From the NCBI GenBank assembly GCA_003222535.1, contig QHWJ01000184.1:1-41310 (forward strand): DNA of 41,310 nt, written 5' to 3'. Numbering within the stretch: position 1 is the first letter of the stretch; each line of letters starts with the position of its first letter. Source of the DNA: Acidobacteriota bacterium. GTDB taxonomy: Bacteria; Acidobacteriota; Vicinamibacteria; Vicinamibacterales; CAVVIG01. A program made the position numbers and the translations under genes. This document shows, piece by piece, positions 1,916-39,293 of the stretch. The notes below the pieces were generated by a model. It saw nothing but the letters and a program-made list of their open reading frames with translations, did not search any database and was not told where the DNA came from.

Positions 1916-1941
1916 TCGCTCGGCTGAAGCCTTCGCGCTCC
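1916..1941. repeat. Dispersed 26-nt element, intergenic copy
   Basis: The reverse complement of 1916-1941 is identical over 26 nt to 25775-25800 and 25808-25833, which lie inside the E1 dehydrogenase gene. Its core is the small palindrome GGCTTCAGCC. A diverged relative is at 39129-39145. Confidence 0.75.
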
Positions 1942-24389: not shown

Positions 24390-24793
24390 TCGCCGGCCGC
24401 GCCATCGTCGCCGGGAATGCGGAAGGGGACGCGCTCGTCACGAGCGACGCGCTCTCGTTCTGGGGCGGCTATGATTTTCACACCGGCGAGATCATCGATC
24501 GCCGCCATCCCCTCGCGGGGGTGCGCGCGGCGGGGCGCATTCTCGCCGTGCCGTTCAGCAAGGGATCGTCGTCGACGACCGCCGTGCTCGTCGAGGCGGT
24601 GCGGGCGGGCACCGCACCGGCCGCGATCCTGACGACCGGTGTCGACGCCTTTTTCGCGCTCGCATCGATCGTGGCGGACGTCATGTACGGCAAGCCGTTC
24701 CCGGTCATTGCGCTCGAGCCGGTTGATTTTGCGTCGCTGCGATCGGGGGAGCAGCTGCGGATCGAGCTGTCCGGTGTCATCAGACGGATATAA
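24374..24793 (+). CDS. Aconitase X small (swivel) subunit, DUF126
   Basis: 139 residues from GTG 24374, inside the end of the large-subunit gene in another frame. It carries the swivelling-domain signatures GNAEGDALVTSDALSFWGGYD, GRILAVPFSKGSSSTTAVL with the conserved Gly/Ser loop, and PVIALEPVDF. AcnX enzymes are either fused or split; here the split arrangement with translational coupling is clear. It is required with the large subunit to complete the active site (family knowledge). Confidence 0.88.
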   Translation: MADRVIAGRAIVAGNAEGDALVTSDALSFWGGYDFHTGEIIDRRHPLAGVRAAGRILAVPFSKGSSSTTAVLVEAVRAGTAPAAILTTGVDAFFALASIVADVMYGKPFPVIALEPVDFASLRSGEQLRIELSGVIRRI

Positions 24794-24794
24794 G

Positions 24795-24822
24795 CCACAG
24801 AGACTCAGAGACACGGAGGGCG
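24795..24822. repeat. CACAGAGACTCAGAGACACGGAG short-unit repeat, left arm
   Basis: Short purine-rich units directly after the AcnX stop. An inverse counterpart (CTCTGCGTCTCCGTGTCTC) lies about 280 nt downstream, so the two enclose the palindromes in between. Confidence 0.6.
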
Positions 24823-24830
24823 GCCTCGCG

Positions 24831-24890
24831 GGTTCGACGGTGTCGCTATGCGGCGCCAGCCGGCCTGCTGCGCAGGCCGGCCGTCGAACC
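24831..24890. repeat. Nested hairpin element
   Basis: Outer perfect arms GGTTCGACGG (24831-24840) and CCGTCGAACC (24881-24890). Inner perfect arms GCCGGCCTGC (24859-24868) and GCAGGCCGGC (24872-24881) with loop TGC. No T-tract follows. It is part of the 410-nt gene-free stretch 24794-25203, which is made almost entirely of repeats. Confidence 0.75.
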
Positions 24891-24902
24891 GTTCCAAAGC
24901 GC

Positions 24903-25070
24903 CTTAGTGGTCCGTCGCGTAATTACGGCGACGCACCGAGGGCGCCGAGGCGCCCGCCCCGCAAGGCGCGAGGAGGGACAATACCAGGAGTATTCGACCG
25001 ACGAGCAACGCCGCGGGGCGGGATGCATCGGCGGCCGAATGCAGCCGTAATTACGCGGCGGGCCACTTAG
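24903..25070. repeat. 168-bp imperfect palindrome with 27-bp terminal inverted repeats
   Basis: Terminal arms 24903-24929 and 25044-25070 match at 24 of 27 positions and contain CGCGTAATTACGGC. Inside, CCCGCCCCGC pairs with GCGGGGCGGG, and the tip has AATAC-CAGGA-GTATT. The whole can fold into one long rod. There is no open reading frame and no transposase in the window. It resembles a MITE, a REP-like element or a structured RNA. Confidence 0.8.
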
Positions 25071-25082
25071 CCTCTACGGACT

Positions 25083-25190
25083 TTGCCGGCTCTGCGTTCG
25101 AAACTCTGCGTCTCCGTGTCTCCTGGCCCGTTACTCTTCGTGACCTTCGGTGACTTTCGTGACTTCGTGTTTTCGTGGTTGCCTTTGATA
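25083..25190. repeat. Short-unit repeats before E1 gene
   Basis: CTCTGCG/CTCCGTGTCTC units (25089-25121) followed by TTCGTGACCTTCGGTGACTTTCGTGAC-type units (25137-25180). The first set is the inverse of 24795-24822. No gene is seen here. Confidence 0.65.
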
Positions 25191-25203
25191 CGATCAACCG
25201 GCC

Positions 25204-27825
25204 ATGGCGAAGCCCGCTGAGCTCGAGAAGCTGACCGGCCTTGCGAGCCGCTTCGGTGCGTTCGTCGCCGAGCGGCATCCCTTCGCGCTCGCCGATTCGC
25301 TCGAGGTCTTCGAGACGGTGACCGCCGGCCGCGATCCGCGGGACGAGGCCGGAATCGACGCGCTGCGCTCGGCGTTCCGTCGCGAGTTGACGCGCCGATT
25401 GCAGTCTCGGCCGCTGCCGGCGGGCCTGCCCGACACGACGCCGCGCACAAGCGTTGCCGCGCGAATGGGTCAGGCGCATGACGAACTGCTCGACGCGTGC
25501 GACGGTTTCCTGCGTCGCGCGGCAATTGAGGCGTCGCTCACGCGCGAGGAACGCCTCGAGATTCTGCGCGGCATGGTGCTCACGCGCGCGACCGACAACC
25601 GCCTCAAGACATTCTTTCTCGGTGGCGAGGTCCGCTTCGGCGGGACCGCGCTCCAGGGCAAGGGATTCCGATCCCTCGGCCAGGAGGCGATTTACGGCGC
25701 GGCGATGCGCCTGCGGCGAGGCCCGAAGTACCGCGGCGATGGCTCCGTGAAGACCTCAGCCGAGCGATGGGACAGGAGCGCGAAGGCTTCAGCCGAGCGA
25801 TGGGACGGGAGCGCGAAGGCTTCAGCCGAGCGATCGACGTGGCACGGTGACGTCATCGGTCCGATGATTCGCGATCTGGGCGTCACGCTGGCGATGCGGC
25901 CGGAGCCGGCCACCGTGCGTATGGTGCTCAACTCGCAGATGGCGAAGGCGGGTCCACCGACCGGCGGAAAGGACTTCGGCTACGGCGACATCGACTGGGG
26001 GATCCTCCTGCCGGCGTCGCCGCTCACGATCGCGACGCTGACGCTGGCGGGCATGGCGATGGCGTTCTGGCGCGAAGGCTCGGGTCGCGTCGCCGTGTCG
26101 TTCATCGGCGAAGGCGGATCGTCGCTCGGCGAATGGCACGAGGCGATCAACCTGTGCGCCGCGCGGCGCCTGCCGGCGATCTTCTGCATCCAGAACAATC
26201 AGACCGCGCTGTCGACGCCGGTGGCGGATCAGTCGGCCGTCCGCACGTTCGCCGAAAAGGCGGCGGGCTACGGCGTGCCGGGCGTCACGATCGACGGGAC
26301 GGATCCCGAGGCGATTGCGGGCGCCTTCGGCTGGGCCGCCGAGCGGGCGCGCGCCGGCCTCGGGCCCGCGCTCATCGAGTTGGTGGCGATGCGGATGTGC
26401 GGCCACGCCCATCACGACGATATGTTGTACCTGGGTCGCGACCCGCAGACATCGTGGGAGATCCCGCCGCTGACCGGGCATGGCTATGCGAACCGCGAGC
26501 TCTACGAGTACTGGGCCTCGCGTGATCCGATCGCGCTCTATGCGGCTCGGCTGACCGCCGACGCGATCCTCGCGCCGGGCGATCTCGACCGCTTCAAAAG
26601 CGAGGCCGAAGCGATTGTCGAGGCAGAGGCCCGCGCGGTCATCGACGCGCCGTGGCCCGATCCGGCGCAGGCCGGCATCGGCGTGTTCGCGAACGAGCCG
26701 GCGCGCGTGCGCGTCGAGGTCCTCGATCCGGACGTCAGGCTACGTACAAGGAACGCAGAGGCCGCTGAGCCCACGGAGAAATCCGGCTGTGCGAGCTCCG
26801 CGGGCTGTCGGTTCAACGTTGAGGAGGCGCCGCCGTTCGACGCGAAAGGCCGCACGTTCCTCGACGCGGTGATGCTCGGCGTCGGCGACGCACTGCGCGC
26901 CGACCCTCGCGTGTTCGTCTACGGCGAGGACGTGGGCGGGAGTTACGGGAACGCGTTCCTGCTCCTGCGGCCGCTCATCGAGGAGCTCGGCGATCGCATC
27001 ATCAATTCGCCGATCGCCGAAAGCGGCGTACTCGGCGTGTGCGTCGGGGCGGCGCTGGCGGGTCAGCGGCCCATCGGCGAGATGCAGTTCAACGACTTCG
27101 TCGCGACCGGGTTCAATCAGCTCGTCAACAACGCGGCGATGAACCGCTACCGCTGGGGCGGCGGCGTGCCGATGGTGCTGCGGATGCCGTGGGGCGGCCT
27201 GCGCCATGCCGGCCCCTATCACTCGCAGAATACCGAAGCGTGGTTCTACCGGACGCCCGGCCTGAAGATCGTCGTGCCGTCGACGCCGCACGATGCGCGC
27301 GCGCTGATGGCGTCGGCGGTCGCCGATCCGGATCCGGTCCTCTACTACGAGCACATCGCGCTCTATCGCGATCCGCGGATCAGGCAGGCGATCGCCGACG
27401 AGCCGCCGGCGCCGATTCCGCTGGGCAGGGCGGCGGTGCGCCGCGCTGGAGACGATCTCGCGATCATTTCCTATGGCGCGTTCGTGCACGTCGCTCTGCG
27501 GCTCGCCGAGAAGCTCGCCGCCGACGGCATCGAAGCGAGCGTCCTCGATCTGCGCAGCCTCGCGCCGCTCGACCGCGATGCGCTGCTGCACGTCGCGCGC
27601 CACTGCCACAAGGTCCTCGTCATTCACGAGGACTCGCGCACCGGCGGCATCGGCGAAAGCCTCGCCGCCATCATTCAGGAGGAAGCCTTCGAAGCGCTCG
27701 ACGCGCCCATCCGCATCGTCGGCGCGCTGGACACGCCGGTGCCGTACTCGCCGTCGCTCGAGGAGTTCTATCTGCCGAGCGAAGCGCAGATCGAGCGCGC
27801 GGCCCGGCTGCTCATCGCCTATTGA
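25204..27825 (+). CDS. Fused alpha/beta E1 component of a 2-oxoacid dehydrogenase
   Basis: Thiamine-diphosphate-dependent decarboxylating subunit, most like branched-chain 2-oxoacid (2-oxoisovalerate) dehydrogenase E1, with alpha and beta chains in one 873-residue polypeptide. Residues 1-110 are an unassigned extension. The alpha half has RTFFLGGEV-like text, KDFGYGDIDWG, and the ThDP motif GEG (302-304) through NN (331-332). The beta half begins near 547 (TFLDAVMLGVGDAL, GEDVGGSYG) and contains EMQFNDFVATGFNQLVNNAA and HEDSRTGGIGESLAA. Residues 179-209 are a triplicated dispersed repeat, and the alpha-beta linker near 514-530 is an intergenic-type repeat. E2/E3 genes are not in the window. 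ATG 25204 lacks a ribosome site. Confidence 0.92.
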   Translation: MAKPAELEKLTGLASRFGAFVAERHPFALADSLEVFETVTAGRDPRDEAGIDALRSAFRRELTRRLQSRPLPAGLPDTTPRTSVAARMGQAHDELLDACDGFLRRAAIEASLTREERLEILRGMVLTRATDNRLKTFFLGGEVRFGGTALQGKGFRSLGQEAIYGAAMRLRRGPKYRGDGSVKTSAERWDRSAKASAERWDGSAKASAERSTWHGDVIGPMIRDLGVTLAMRPEPATVRMVLNSQMAKAGPPTGGKDFGYGDIDWGILLPASPLTIATLTLAGMAMAFWREGSGRVAVSFIGEGGSSLGEWHEAINLCAARRLPAIFCIQNNQTALSTPVADQSAVRTFAEKAAGYGVPGVTIDGTDPEAIAGAFGWAAERARAGLGPALIELVAMRMCGHAHHDDMLYLGRDPQTSWEIPPLTGHGYANRELYEYWASRDPIALYAARLTADAILAPGDLDRFKSEAEAIVEAEARAVIDAPWPDPAQAGIGVFANEPARVRVEVLDPDVRLRTRNAEAAEPTEKSGCASSAGCRFNVEEAPPFDAKGRTFLDAVMLGVGDALRADPRVFVYGEDVGGSYGNAFLLLRPLIEELGDRIINSPIAESGVLGVCVGAALAGQRPIGEMQFNDFVATGFNQLVNNAAMNRYRWGGGVPMVLRMPWGGLRHAGPYHSQNTEAWFYRTPGLKIVVPSTPHDARALMASAVADPDPVLYYEHIALYRDPRIRQAIADEPPAPIPLGRAAVRRAGDDLAIISYGAFVHVALRLAEKLAADGIEASVLDLRSLAPLDRDALLHVARHCHKVLVIHEDSRTGGIGESLAAIIQEEAFEALDAPIRIVGALDTPVPYSPSLEEFYLPSEAQIERAARLLIAY
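25738..25831 (+). repeat. Three tandem copies of a dispersed element inside E1
   Basis: Units 25738-25765 (28 nt, diverged), 25766-25798 and 25799-25831 (33 nt each) contain GCGAAGGCTTCAGCCGAGCG. They encode VKTSAER, RSAKASAERW and SAKASAER. The last two share a 26-nt exact match with intergenic 1916-1941. The insertion keeps the frame and lies in the alpha domain before WHGDVIGPMIRDLG. Confidence 0.85.
26743..26782 (+). repeat. Short-unit intergenic-type repeat at the E1 alpha/beta junction
   Basis: AAGGAACGCAGAGGCCGCTG continuing AGCCCACGGAGAAATC has the same purine-rich short-unit style as the intergenic repeats at 24795-24822 and 25089-25121. It encodes TRNAEAAEPTEK at the point where the alpha chain ends and the beta chain begins. 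Confidence 0.6.
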
Positions 27826-31665: not shown

Positions 31666-32946
31666 ATGTCGAGACAGTCACTCTTGCCGTTGATGGTGGC
31701 CGCGTTTCTCTGCTCCATCTTCGTCTTCTGTGTCGATCCAGCGCACAGTCAAGGCCGCGGTCAAGGCCGCGGTCAAGCGGCGGCACTGCCGGACGGGCCT
31801 GGCAAAGAGATGGTCCAGACCAATTGCACGAAGTGCCACGCAACCAACTTGATCGTCAACTCAGGGGGATACACGCGGCAAGGATGGGAGGACCTCTTCA
31901 ACACGATGGTTGCTGTGCCGAAGGAAGAGAGCATCGTGATGGCGGACTATCTCGCGAAGAACTTCCCCGAGCAGCCGAGACCGGCCGCCGTGGTGATTCC
32001 CGGACCGGTGACTGTGTCCTTCAAGGAGTGGGCGGCCCCCAGCCTCGGGTCGCGGCCCCATGATCCCGAACCGGGCCCCGGCGGGACGATTTGGTGGACG
32101 GGAATGTTCGCCAACGTGTTGGGGCGACTCGATCCGAAGACGGGCCAGATGAAGGAATATCCCGCGAAGACGCCTGCCTCCGGCCCGCACGGTCTCGCGT
32201 TCGACAAGGCCGGCAATCTGTGGTTCACGGCGAACTCGAAGAGCTACATCGGCAAGCTCGATCCGAAGACGGGCGACATCACGGAATACAAGATGCCGGA
32301 AGGCGTTCGCGATCCGCACACGCCGCTCTTCGCACCGAACGGCATACTCTTCTTCACGGCGCAGAACGCGAATTATGTCGGCCGTCTCGACCCGAAGACC
32401 GGAGACATCAAGGTCGTCAAGACGCCGACCGATCGCGCGAACCCCTACGGGATGGTATTTGACACCAAGGGCGTTCCGTTCGTCTGCGACTTCGGCACGA
32501 ACAAGATCATCCGGATCGATCCGAACACGCTCGACATCAAGGAATACGAGCTGCCGAGCGCCGAGAGCCGGCCTCGTCGCATCGCGATTGCCCCCGACGA
32601 TATCATCTGGTACGCGGACTACTCGCGCGGCTATCTGGGCCGGCTCGATCCGAAGACCGGCAAAGTGACTGACTGGGCGTCGCCGAGCGGCCCGAAGTCC
32701 CAACCCTACGGCATCACTTACCTGAACGGCGCCATCTGGTACAGCGAGTCGGCGGTCAGACCGAACACGCTCGTGCGATTCGACCTCAAGACCGAAAAAT
32801 TCCAGACCTGGATTGTTCCGGGCGGCGGCGGCGTTATCCGCAACATGAAGAGCACTCCGGACGGCAAGCTCGTGATCGCGGAAAGCGGCGTCAACAAGGT
32901 TGGCCTGATAGAGATCGGCGGCGCCGCGATGAGCAAATCTCAGTAA
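31666..32946 (+). CDS. Vgb-like beta-propeller protein with N-terminal haem c motif
   Basis: 426-residue exported protein. A signal peptide (MVAAFLCSIFVFCVDPAHS) leads into a small cytochrome c-like domain with C54-x-x-C57-H58 (CTKCH) and the GYTRQGWEDLFNTMV text typical of these domains. The remainder is a seven-blade-type propeller like virginiamycin B lyase/streptogramin lyase, with repeated GRLDPKTG units (IGKLDPKTGDI, VGRLDPKTGDI, LGRLDPKTGKV). True Vgb enzymes lack a haem domain; this fusion is common in environmental proteobacteria and acidobacteria and is probably not a resistance enzyme. ATG 31666 follows GGAGG. The receptor gene is divergent 281 nt away. Confidence 0.88.
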   Translation: MSRQSLLPLMVAAFLCSIFVFCVDPAHSQGRGQGRGQAAALPDGPGKEMVQTNCTKCHATNLIVNSGGYTRQGWEDLFNTMVAVPKEESIVMADYLAKNFPEQPRPAAVVIPGPVTVSFKEWAAPSLGSRPHDPEPGPGGTIWWTGMFANVLGRLDPKTGQMKEYPAKTPASGPHGLAFDKAGNLWFTANSKSYIGKLDPKTGDITEYKMPEGVRDPHTPLFAPNGILFFTAQNANYVGRLDPKTGDIKVVKTPTDRANPYGMVFDTKGVPFVCDFGTNKIIRIDPNTLDIKEYELPSAESRPRRIAIAPDDIIWYADYSRGYLGRLDPKTGKVTDWASPSGPKSQPYGITYLNGAIWYSESAVRPNTLVRFDLKTEKFQTWIVPGGGGVIRNMKSTPDGKLVIAESGVNKVGLIEIGGAAMSKSQ

Positions 32947-35720: not shown

Positions 35721-35796
35721 TAAGGGCCCGCGGAAGAATAAGGTGGATATTGTGGGCGGCGGCCCAATGTCCACCTTATTCTTCTGCTGGCCCTTA
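35721..35796. repeat. Long hairpin with about 36-bp arms
   Basis: Left arm 35721-35757 and right arm 35762-35796 are nearly complementary, sharing GAAGAATAAGGTGGA and TAAGGGCC ends, with a 4-nt loop. It lies between the divergent S9 remnant and ADOP gene. The arms suggest a palindromic repeat element; no T-tract is present. Confidence 0.8.
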
Positions 35797-39090: not shown

Positions 39091-39126
39091 CGACACGACA
39101 ATTGTCCCGGAGAGGACAGCTGATCG

Positions 39127-39230
39127 TAGCGCGAAGGCTTTAGAGCCTGTGAAGCAATCTCGGTAATGTCCGTCTTTAGGCGGACTTGGTCGGGTCCGGC
39201 TGAAGCCGGACACTACCCGAGACTCGATTT
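39127..39230. repeat. Cluster of palindromic elements upstream of glnS
   Basis: Contains a diverged copy of the 26-nt element (GCGCGAAGGCTTTAGAGCCT, 39129-39148), a GTCCG-TCTTTAGG-CGGAC hairpin (39167-39184), and a perfect palindrome GTCCGGCT-GA-AGCCGGAC (39191-39212). Outer arms CTCGGTAATGTCC and GGACACTACCCGAG pair around the latter two. The GTAG-flanked hairpin architecture matches the copies inside metH. Confidence 0.7.
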
Positions 39231-39293
39231 TTTCACACGCTCTTTAGCCGAGCGGGTCGAGACGGCTGGGCTATGGATAAAATAAGAGAGACC

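Follow-up and report, generated by a model that had tools for sequence, protein, structure and literature searches.

How does a short repeat that lies scattered through a bacterial genome come to be read, three times over and in frame, as part of a metabolic enzyme? The question is raised by the window analysed here, a stretch of 41,310 nucleotides that forms contig C179 of an 8.06-Mb, 450-contig assembly (genome G000), in which three copies of such a repeat stand in tandem within the gene of a 2-oxoacid dehydrogenase E1. REPs are short elements whose mobility is attributed to REP-associated tyrosine transposases (RAYTs) that work on single-stranded DNA. We propose, with a probability of about 0.86, that a GTAG-type REP entered a loop of E1 and was then duplicated in tandem, and that the enlarged loop is tolerated by a working enzyme.

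A scan of the window for shared 12-mers revealed that the 26-nt sequence GGAGCGCGAAGGCTTCAGCCGAGCGA at 1916-1941 recurs, inverted and exact, at 25775-25800 and 25808-25833 within the E1 gene, just as the original prediction had it; the diverged third unit that it described is there as well, and is the first of three 33-nt direct repeats (Table 1). Its length of 26 nt holds for the match and not for the element proper, which measures 25 nt and makes up the 33-nt step together with an 8-nt spacer. Likewise, an insertion of about 31 residues had been announced; the insertion is real and its length is 30 (55 residues here vs 25 in the usual form, in the same alignment slice). The copy at 1916-1941 had been placed between hsdR and ahcY, names that are right in kind: its left neighbour matches ResIII and SWI2_SNF2 and is HsdR-like, and its right neighbour matches TIGR00936 (ahcY). 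This copy lies about 62-87 nt upstream of the likely start of the HsdR-like gene, a TTG at 1854 by our own reading, and because the reading frame stays open through the element up to 2025, its intergenic status depends on that start.

Table 1. Positions of the E1 gene, its repeat-related parts and the further repeat copy in the window.
Feature	Position	Strand	Remarks
Further copy of the 25-nt element, between ahcY and the HsdR-like gene	1917..1941	-	Same direction as the HsdR-like gene; assumes the TTG start at 1854
Fused alpha-beta 2-oxoacid dehydrogenase E1, 873 aa	25204..27825	+	Pfam E1_dh, Transket_pyr, Transketolase_C
REP unit 1, diverged, body without GGAGC head	25747..25766	+	Unit register 25746-25778; 4/33 positions differ from unit 2
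REP unit 2, exact 25-nt element, translated SAKASAER	25775..25799	+	Unit register 25779-25811
REP unit 3, exact 25-nt element, translated SAKASAER	25808..25832	+	Unit register 25812-25844
Codons of D216-R223, aligned with the YR motif of E1 alpha	25849..25872	+	DVIGPMIRDLG aligned to DWVFPYYRDHG of 1um9_A
Alpha-beta linker stretch in E1 (NAEAAEPTEKSGCASSAG), related to a CGCAGAG-type dispersed repeat	26754..26804	+	73%, E 2.3e-4 vs the G017 linker repeat

Lining up 132 copies from G000 with 63 from a second genome, G005, gave a sharply bounded 25-mer, G[G/T]AGC followed by GCGAAGGCTTCAGCCGAGCG, with conservation running from G[G/T]AGC to GAGCG 20 bases on. At the variable head position G (GGAGC) stands in 92 and T in 30 of the 132 copies from G000, and T (GTAGC) in 55 of the 63 from G005. 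The genome-wide count that the original prediction had proposed finds the 21-mer core in 109 + 108 copies at up to 3 mismatches, and in 1 + 0 when the pattern is read backwards; with 217 copies against 1 in the control, the recurrence is therefore far beyond chance. A 20-mer pattern at up to 2 mismatches returned 205 copies here (reversed control, 0) and was matched in 12 of the 60 genomes searched, G000 included, with 125 copies in G005, 38 in G017, 27 in G014, 14 in G020 and 1 to 7 in each of the remaining seven. These properties fit a GTAG-type REP: a sharply bordered 25-nt element falls within the 20-40 bp of that class, the tag is found as GTAGC in most G005 copies and as GGAGC in most of those in G000, and the copies are numerous and dispersed. 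The E1 type, which we call type I, can form a 6-bp interrupted hairpin with the head left unpaired, no stronger than in shuffled sequences (z 0.17 and -0.25); the corresponding z is -1.77 for the sister type described below and -3.99 for a RAYT-linked type of G005. A search of positions 24700-26900 with Rfam returned nothing at gathering thresholds.

As judged from sequence, the REP family to which type I belongs is tied to RAYTs via sister types, and not directly. Two patterns served to count the sister type (type II), GCGAGCCTTTCAGGCGAGCG. One that departs from its consensus by a single base, with up to 2 mismatches allowed, matched 285 times in G014 and 72 times in G000; the consensus itself, with up to 3 allowed, matched 234 times in G026 and 153 times in G000. 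G014 encodes a RAYT of 166 residues (L085; contig G014:C106, 1429-1926) that scores 100.4 bits against NF047646, for which the cut-off is 80. On one side of this gene lie 15 tandem sister-type elements, mostly in 37-nt steps, with two inverted copies beyond them, and on the other side three inverted copies (all at up to 4 mismatches). The only Y1_Tnp match in G000 also passes the RAYT model (101.2 bits) and has CCGG-type repeats on both sides, and a RAYT of G005 (L082, 106.5 bits) has on both sides arrays of a third, related repeat type. RAYT/TnpA-REP systems (REPtrons) are resembled in that REP_Tyr_transpos genes with flanking REP-like repeats occur in G014, G005 and G000; the difference is that neither of the genomes rich in type I, G000 and G005, yielded a RAYT with this exact type beside it. 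According to one study on REP recognition, TnpA-REP cuts REPs in single-stranded form, and GTAG is one of the determinants (PMC8266576).

The history of the insertion site was traced in an alignment of 104 E1 proteins (sets of 24 and 80, some genomes being in both), mostly from Acidobacteriota MAGs, several of them labelled Vicinamibacteria or Vicinamibacterales. The site is covered by 101 rows, with three fragments (L053, L178, L184) kept outside the count. Ninety-one rows have no long insert, their loop measuring 23-25 residues in 85 and 13-16 in six; the predicted absence of the insertion is thereby confirmed for most orthologues, and this supports, given a dispersed and mostly noncoding repeat, the view that noncoding sequence has turned into protein sequence. 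An ancestral coding repeat in E1 was rejected on the same count. A REP-type insert or remnant is present in seven rows, which represent four genomes (G000, G005, G016 and G026), and inserts of other kinds in three (L121, with AFAKATADKA, L141 and L168). Where G000 has three units, G005 has one, with a GTAGC head, and the sequences at this site in G016 and G026 are close to the sister type, the G016 copy being two mismatches off. Expansion by 33-nt steps stands for G000, and the original picture of a single entry followed by expansion is qualified by the other REP type in G016 and G026, which makes it uncertain that the site was entered only once. All four carriers group in one clade (support 100/100 in a tree of 29 rows; its internal order is weak, 83/60). 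The spacing from the 3' border to the next TGG codon is identical in all four, and their 5' borders differ. Which type sits in E1 tracks the repertoire of the host genome, the ratio of type I to type II copies (counted at up to 2 and up to 3 mismatches, respectively) being 125 to 8 in G005, 3 to 234 in G026, 4 to 32 in G016 and 205 to 153 in G000, which is rich in both. Two types at one site fit separate insertions, or the replacement of one element by another. The AFAKATADKA insert of L121 (MGR_bin296) resembles a dispersed repeat that its genome has in 13 places when up to 3 mismatches are allowed (none in the control), and is an independent insert at the same site.

Is the enzyme that carries these residues a working one? 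A Pfam scan of the 873-residue protein found all three domains listed in Table 1, and no NCBIfam model scored above its own cut-off, so that the substrate is left unnamed. By our own Nei-Gojobori script, dN/dS is 0.157 between this E1 and its counterpart in G005, and four further pairs gave 0.187 to 0.290; the gene is therefore under purifying selection despite the insert. The original prediction had put the insert in the catalytic alpha domain; a place in the catalytic core we reject, for the insert occupies a length-variable loop that precedes D216, and the segment D216-R223, aligned with DWVFPYYR of 1um9_A and so with the YR motif of E1 alpha, which we take to contact ThDP, comes after it. 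In an AlphaFold model built on 41 sequences (mean pLDDT 81.9), with which Foldseek retrieved E1 beta chains best and then transketolases, the insert (residues 181-187 and 189-209) has pLDDT below 50, and the loop is probably flexible. Values below 50 are not special to inserts; they occur in the linker (520-536) and also at residues 337-348 and 664-677, which belong to no insert.

The E1 gene is no one-off, and in this respect the original prediction has to be widened: E1 is one of many genes that carry an in-frame copy of a REP-type element. Twenty element-bearing ORFs besides E1, chosen beforehand by their coding signal, were scanned, and all 20 score above the cut-off of a Pfam family; in eight of them the element lies inside the Pfam-matched stretch (gamma-glutamyltranspeptidase, MFS, histone deacetylase domain, IspD, methyltransferase, AMP-binding enzyme, PfkB and protein kinase). 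The MFS protein has three tandem copies within a loop, in steps of 30 nt; of six proteins compared with it, five have this loop shorter and one has another insert in it. In PfkB, G005 has a copy in sense and G014 one in antisense at the same place; neither is present in 13 other aligned proteins, one of which (L356) has a different short insert there. This pair favours separate insertions, as far as the aligned sequences tell.

Orientation was scored for 195 copies at 168 sites in fetched loci of G000 and G005, from which 6 sites too near an end were dropped; the sample stands against 205 plus 125 copies in the two genomes and over-represents exact and near-exact ones, best matches having been taken first. 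The codon model was retrained on 90,793 codons of these loci, that of a first count having come from five genes. Coding signal was present on both sides of the element at 25 sites, on one strand at 22 and on opposite strands at 3. All 22 same-strand sites have the element in sense and 21 have it in phase (binomial p 4.8e-7 and 1.4e-9). With coding signal downstream only, 33 sites were sense and 8 antisense, with signal upstream only 12 and 10, and 74 sites had none on either side. Four element-bearing ORFs with a Pfam match (L197, L225, L255 and L277) fall outside the class with same-strand signal on both sides. The sister type in G014 is less biased than type I: among 110 sites, scored with the codon model trained on G000 and G005 and not on G014, 6 copies within genes were sense and 3 antisense, 7 of the 9 being in phase, and 26 and 11, respectively, stood in front of genes. 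Antisense cases that turn up under other counting rules or in other genomes speak against an absolute orientation rule: these 3 of 9 same-strand sites, the copy in PfkB of G014, L255 (IspD/YgbB), two arrays in G000 and one in G014. Array steps were multiples of three in 12 of 21 arrays in genes vs 26 of 60 elsewhere, which is no clear difference.

Our reading of these data is as follows. REP copies would be inserted by RAYT activity on single-stranded DNA, exact type I presumably among them, and most insertions in genes would be lost, those surviving that fall in loops and leave the frame open. One copy would have entered E1 at a permissive loop that directly precedes the strand running towards the ThDP-site motif, either in the ancestor of the small clade or separately in its sub-lineages. 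In G000 the element and its 8-nt spacer would then have been duplicated twice in tandem, slippage and unequal recombination being the probable routes, and the loop thereby lengthened by 30 residues would, if translated as predicted, presumably be neutral. The sense bias could stem from exposure of the coding strand during transcription, from targeting of the lagging strand or from selection on the encoded peptides. More tentatively, certain protein loops may be recurrent landing pads for REPs, in which sister lineages fill the same codon interval independently; the sense bias would then reflect insertion into the exposed coding strand and make REPs an ongoing, strand-biased source of new loops. 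The cases that suggest this possibility are E1, with type I in G000 and G005 and type II in G016 and G026, and PfkB with its copies in both orientations.

The 450 contigs of the assembly, the origin of the relatives from MAGs and the difficulty that repeats pose for assemblers could all be taken to mean that the E1 repeats are an artefact of assembly or binning. The number of units could indeed be wrong. That the separately assembled G005 (JANYHS010000357.1) has identical residues at the same site, and that the sister type stands there in G016 and G026, makes an artefact extremely improbable as the source of the repeats. It is also conceivable that the SAKASAER repeats are useful, in subunit contacts, regulation or partner binding, and have been kept by selection, seeing that the insert or its remnants persist in four genomes of one clade, has expanded in G000 and includes a helix drawn at residues 185-197 of the AlphaFold model. 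Such exaptation would be hard to reconcile with residues that vary among carriers (SAKASAER, GASRSGER, GASLPGER), with the fact that all four differences between units 1 and 2, located in three codons, change a residue, with the shortened loop in six other rows, and with the recurrence of the same SAKASAER-type peptide in unrelated proteins; we consider it very unlikely.

A closer rival concerns the number of insertions. A single ancestral insertion in E1 might have been overwritten later, through gene conversion, by whichever REP type is frequent in the genome concerned, which would account for the single clade of carriers, for their shared spacing from the 3' border to TGG and for the agreement between E1 type and genome repertoire. 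It leaves the sense and antisense copies of PfkB unexplained, which separate insertion explains, and the 5' borders in E1 differ; on balance we regard gene conversion as rather unlikely. Entry of a REP into a tolerant loop, followed by tandem duplication in G000, is the reading that we retain.

REPs inside genes are themselves already published. Di Nocera et al. 2013 (PMC3733652) describe palindromic GTAG and CGTC REPs, also in clusters, within ORFs of known proteins, which they lengthen by 20-30 residues or more, and report one case, recB in two Xanthomonas species, with different REPs at about the same site. Our elements resemble these in being short tagged repeats in ORFs, with different REPs at one site. 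The cases published there come from other phyla and include many replication and repair genes, whereas ours belong to an Acidobacteriota clade, lie mostly in metabolic enzymes and transporters, and comprise, for one site, orthologues that are empty, filled once, filled three times or filled by another type. The same paper describes, as background, Rickettsia palindromic elements as palindromes inserted in frame in protein genes, the examined ones ending in CGTC and not GTAG; comparing descriptions rather than sequences, our element differs, with G[G/T]AGC at its head, GAGCG at its tail and no CGTC tag. Among the matches listed for REPs or RAYTs with Acidobacteria, and for Vicinamibacter palindromes, the titles and abstract openings of open-licence papers mention no such elements in Acidobacteriota proteins. 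What we add is an unusually good comparative series, and the less ordinary feature is that one protein site, in E1 and in PfkB, is used repeatedly by different REP types or orientations. REP-type elements thus supply residues to many conserved proteins in a common soil phylum, and the several states of one site make the route from mobile DNA to protein testable with existing genomes, as is the question whether REP insertion follows transcription or only selection. A practical warning is that peptides of this sort, where protein databases list them, have their origin in repeats.

The alpha-beta linker of E1, whose length varies among orthologues, is a second place of this kind. A 63-nt linker repeat of G017 has 48 matches in that genome and 10 here (40 of 145 and 40 of 86 candidates having been scored in the two genomes), one of which is the linker stretch of our E1; with the REP insert, the E1 gene has therefore taken up two unrelated dispersed repeats, and the linker is repeat-derived in several relatives too. 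Upstream of E1, the segment 24794-25130 has at both ends, as read by eye, repeats of the CACAGAGACTCAGAGACACGGAG type, like the E1-linker repeat, and contains a 37-nt inverted repeat (24893-24929 with 25044-25080, 81% complementary). At 39121-39260, also by eye, about 100 nt with inverted-repeat-like ends and an internal GTCCGGCTGAAGCCGGAC palindrome seem to separate a type I-like REP half (GTAGC...TTTAG) from the second half (TTTAGCCGAGCGG), which would suit the insertion of a small element into a REP and a duplication of TTTAG. Elsewhere in the window, a 32-nt motif recurs five times at a spacing of exactly 129 nt (32128-32675), probably encoding a protein with 43-residue repeats, and at 35721-35796 an inverted repeat of 32 nt has arms that are 91% complementary and 12 nt apart.
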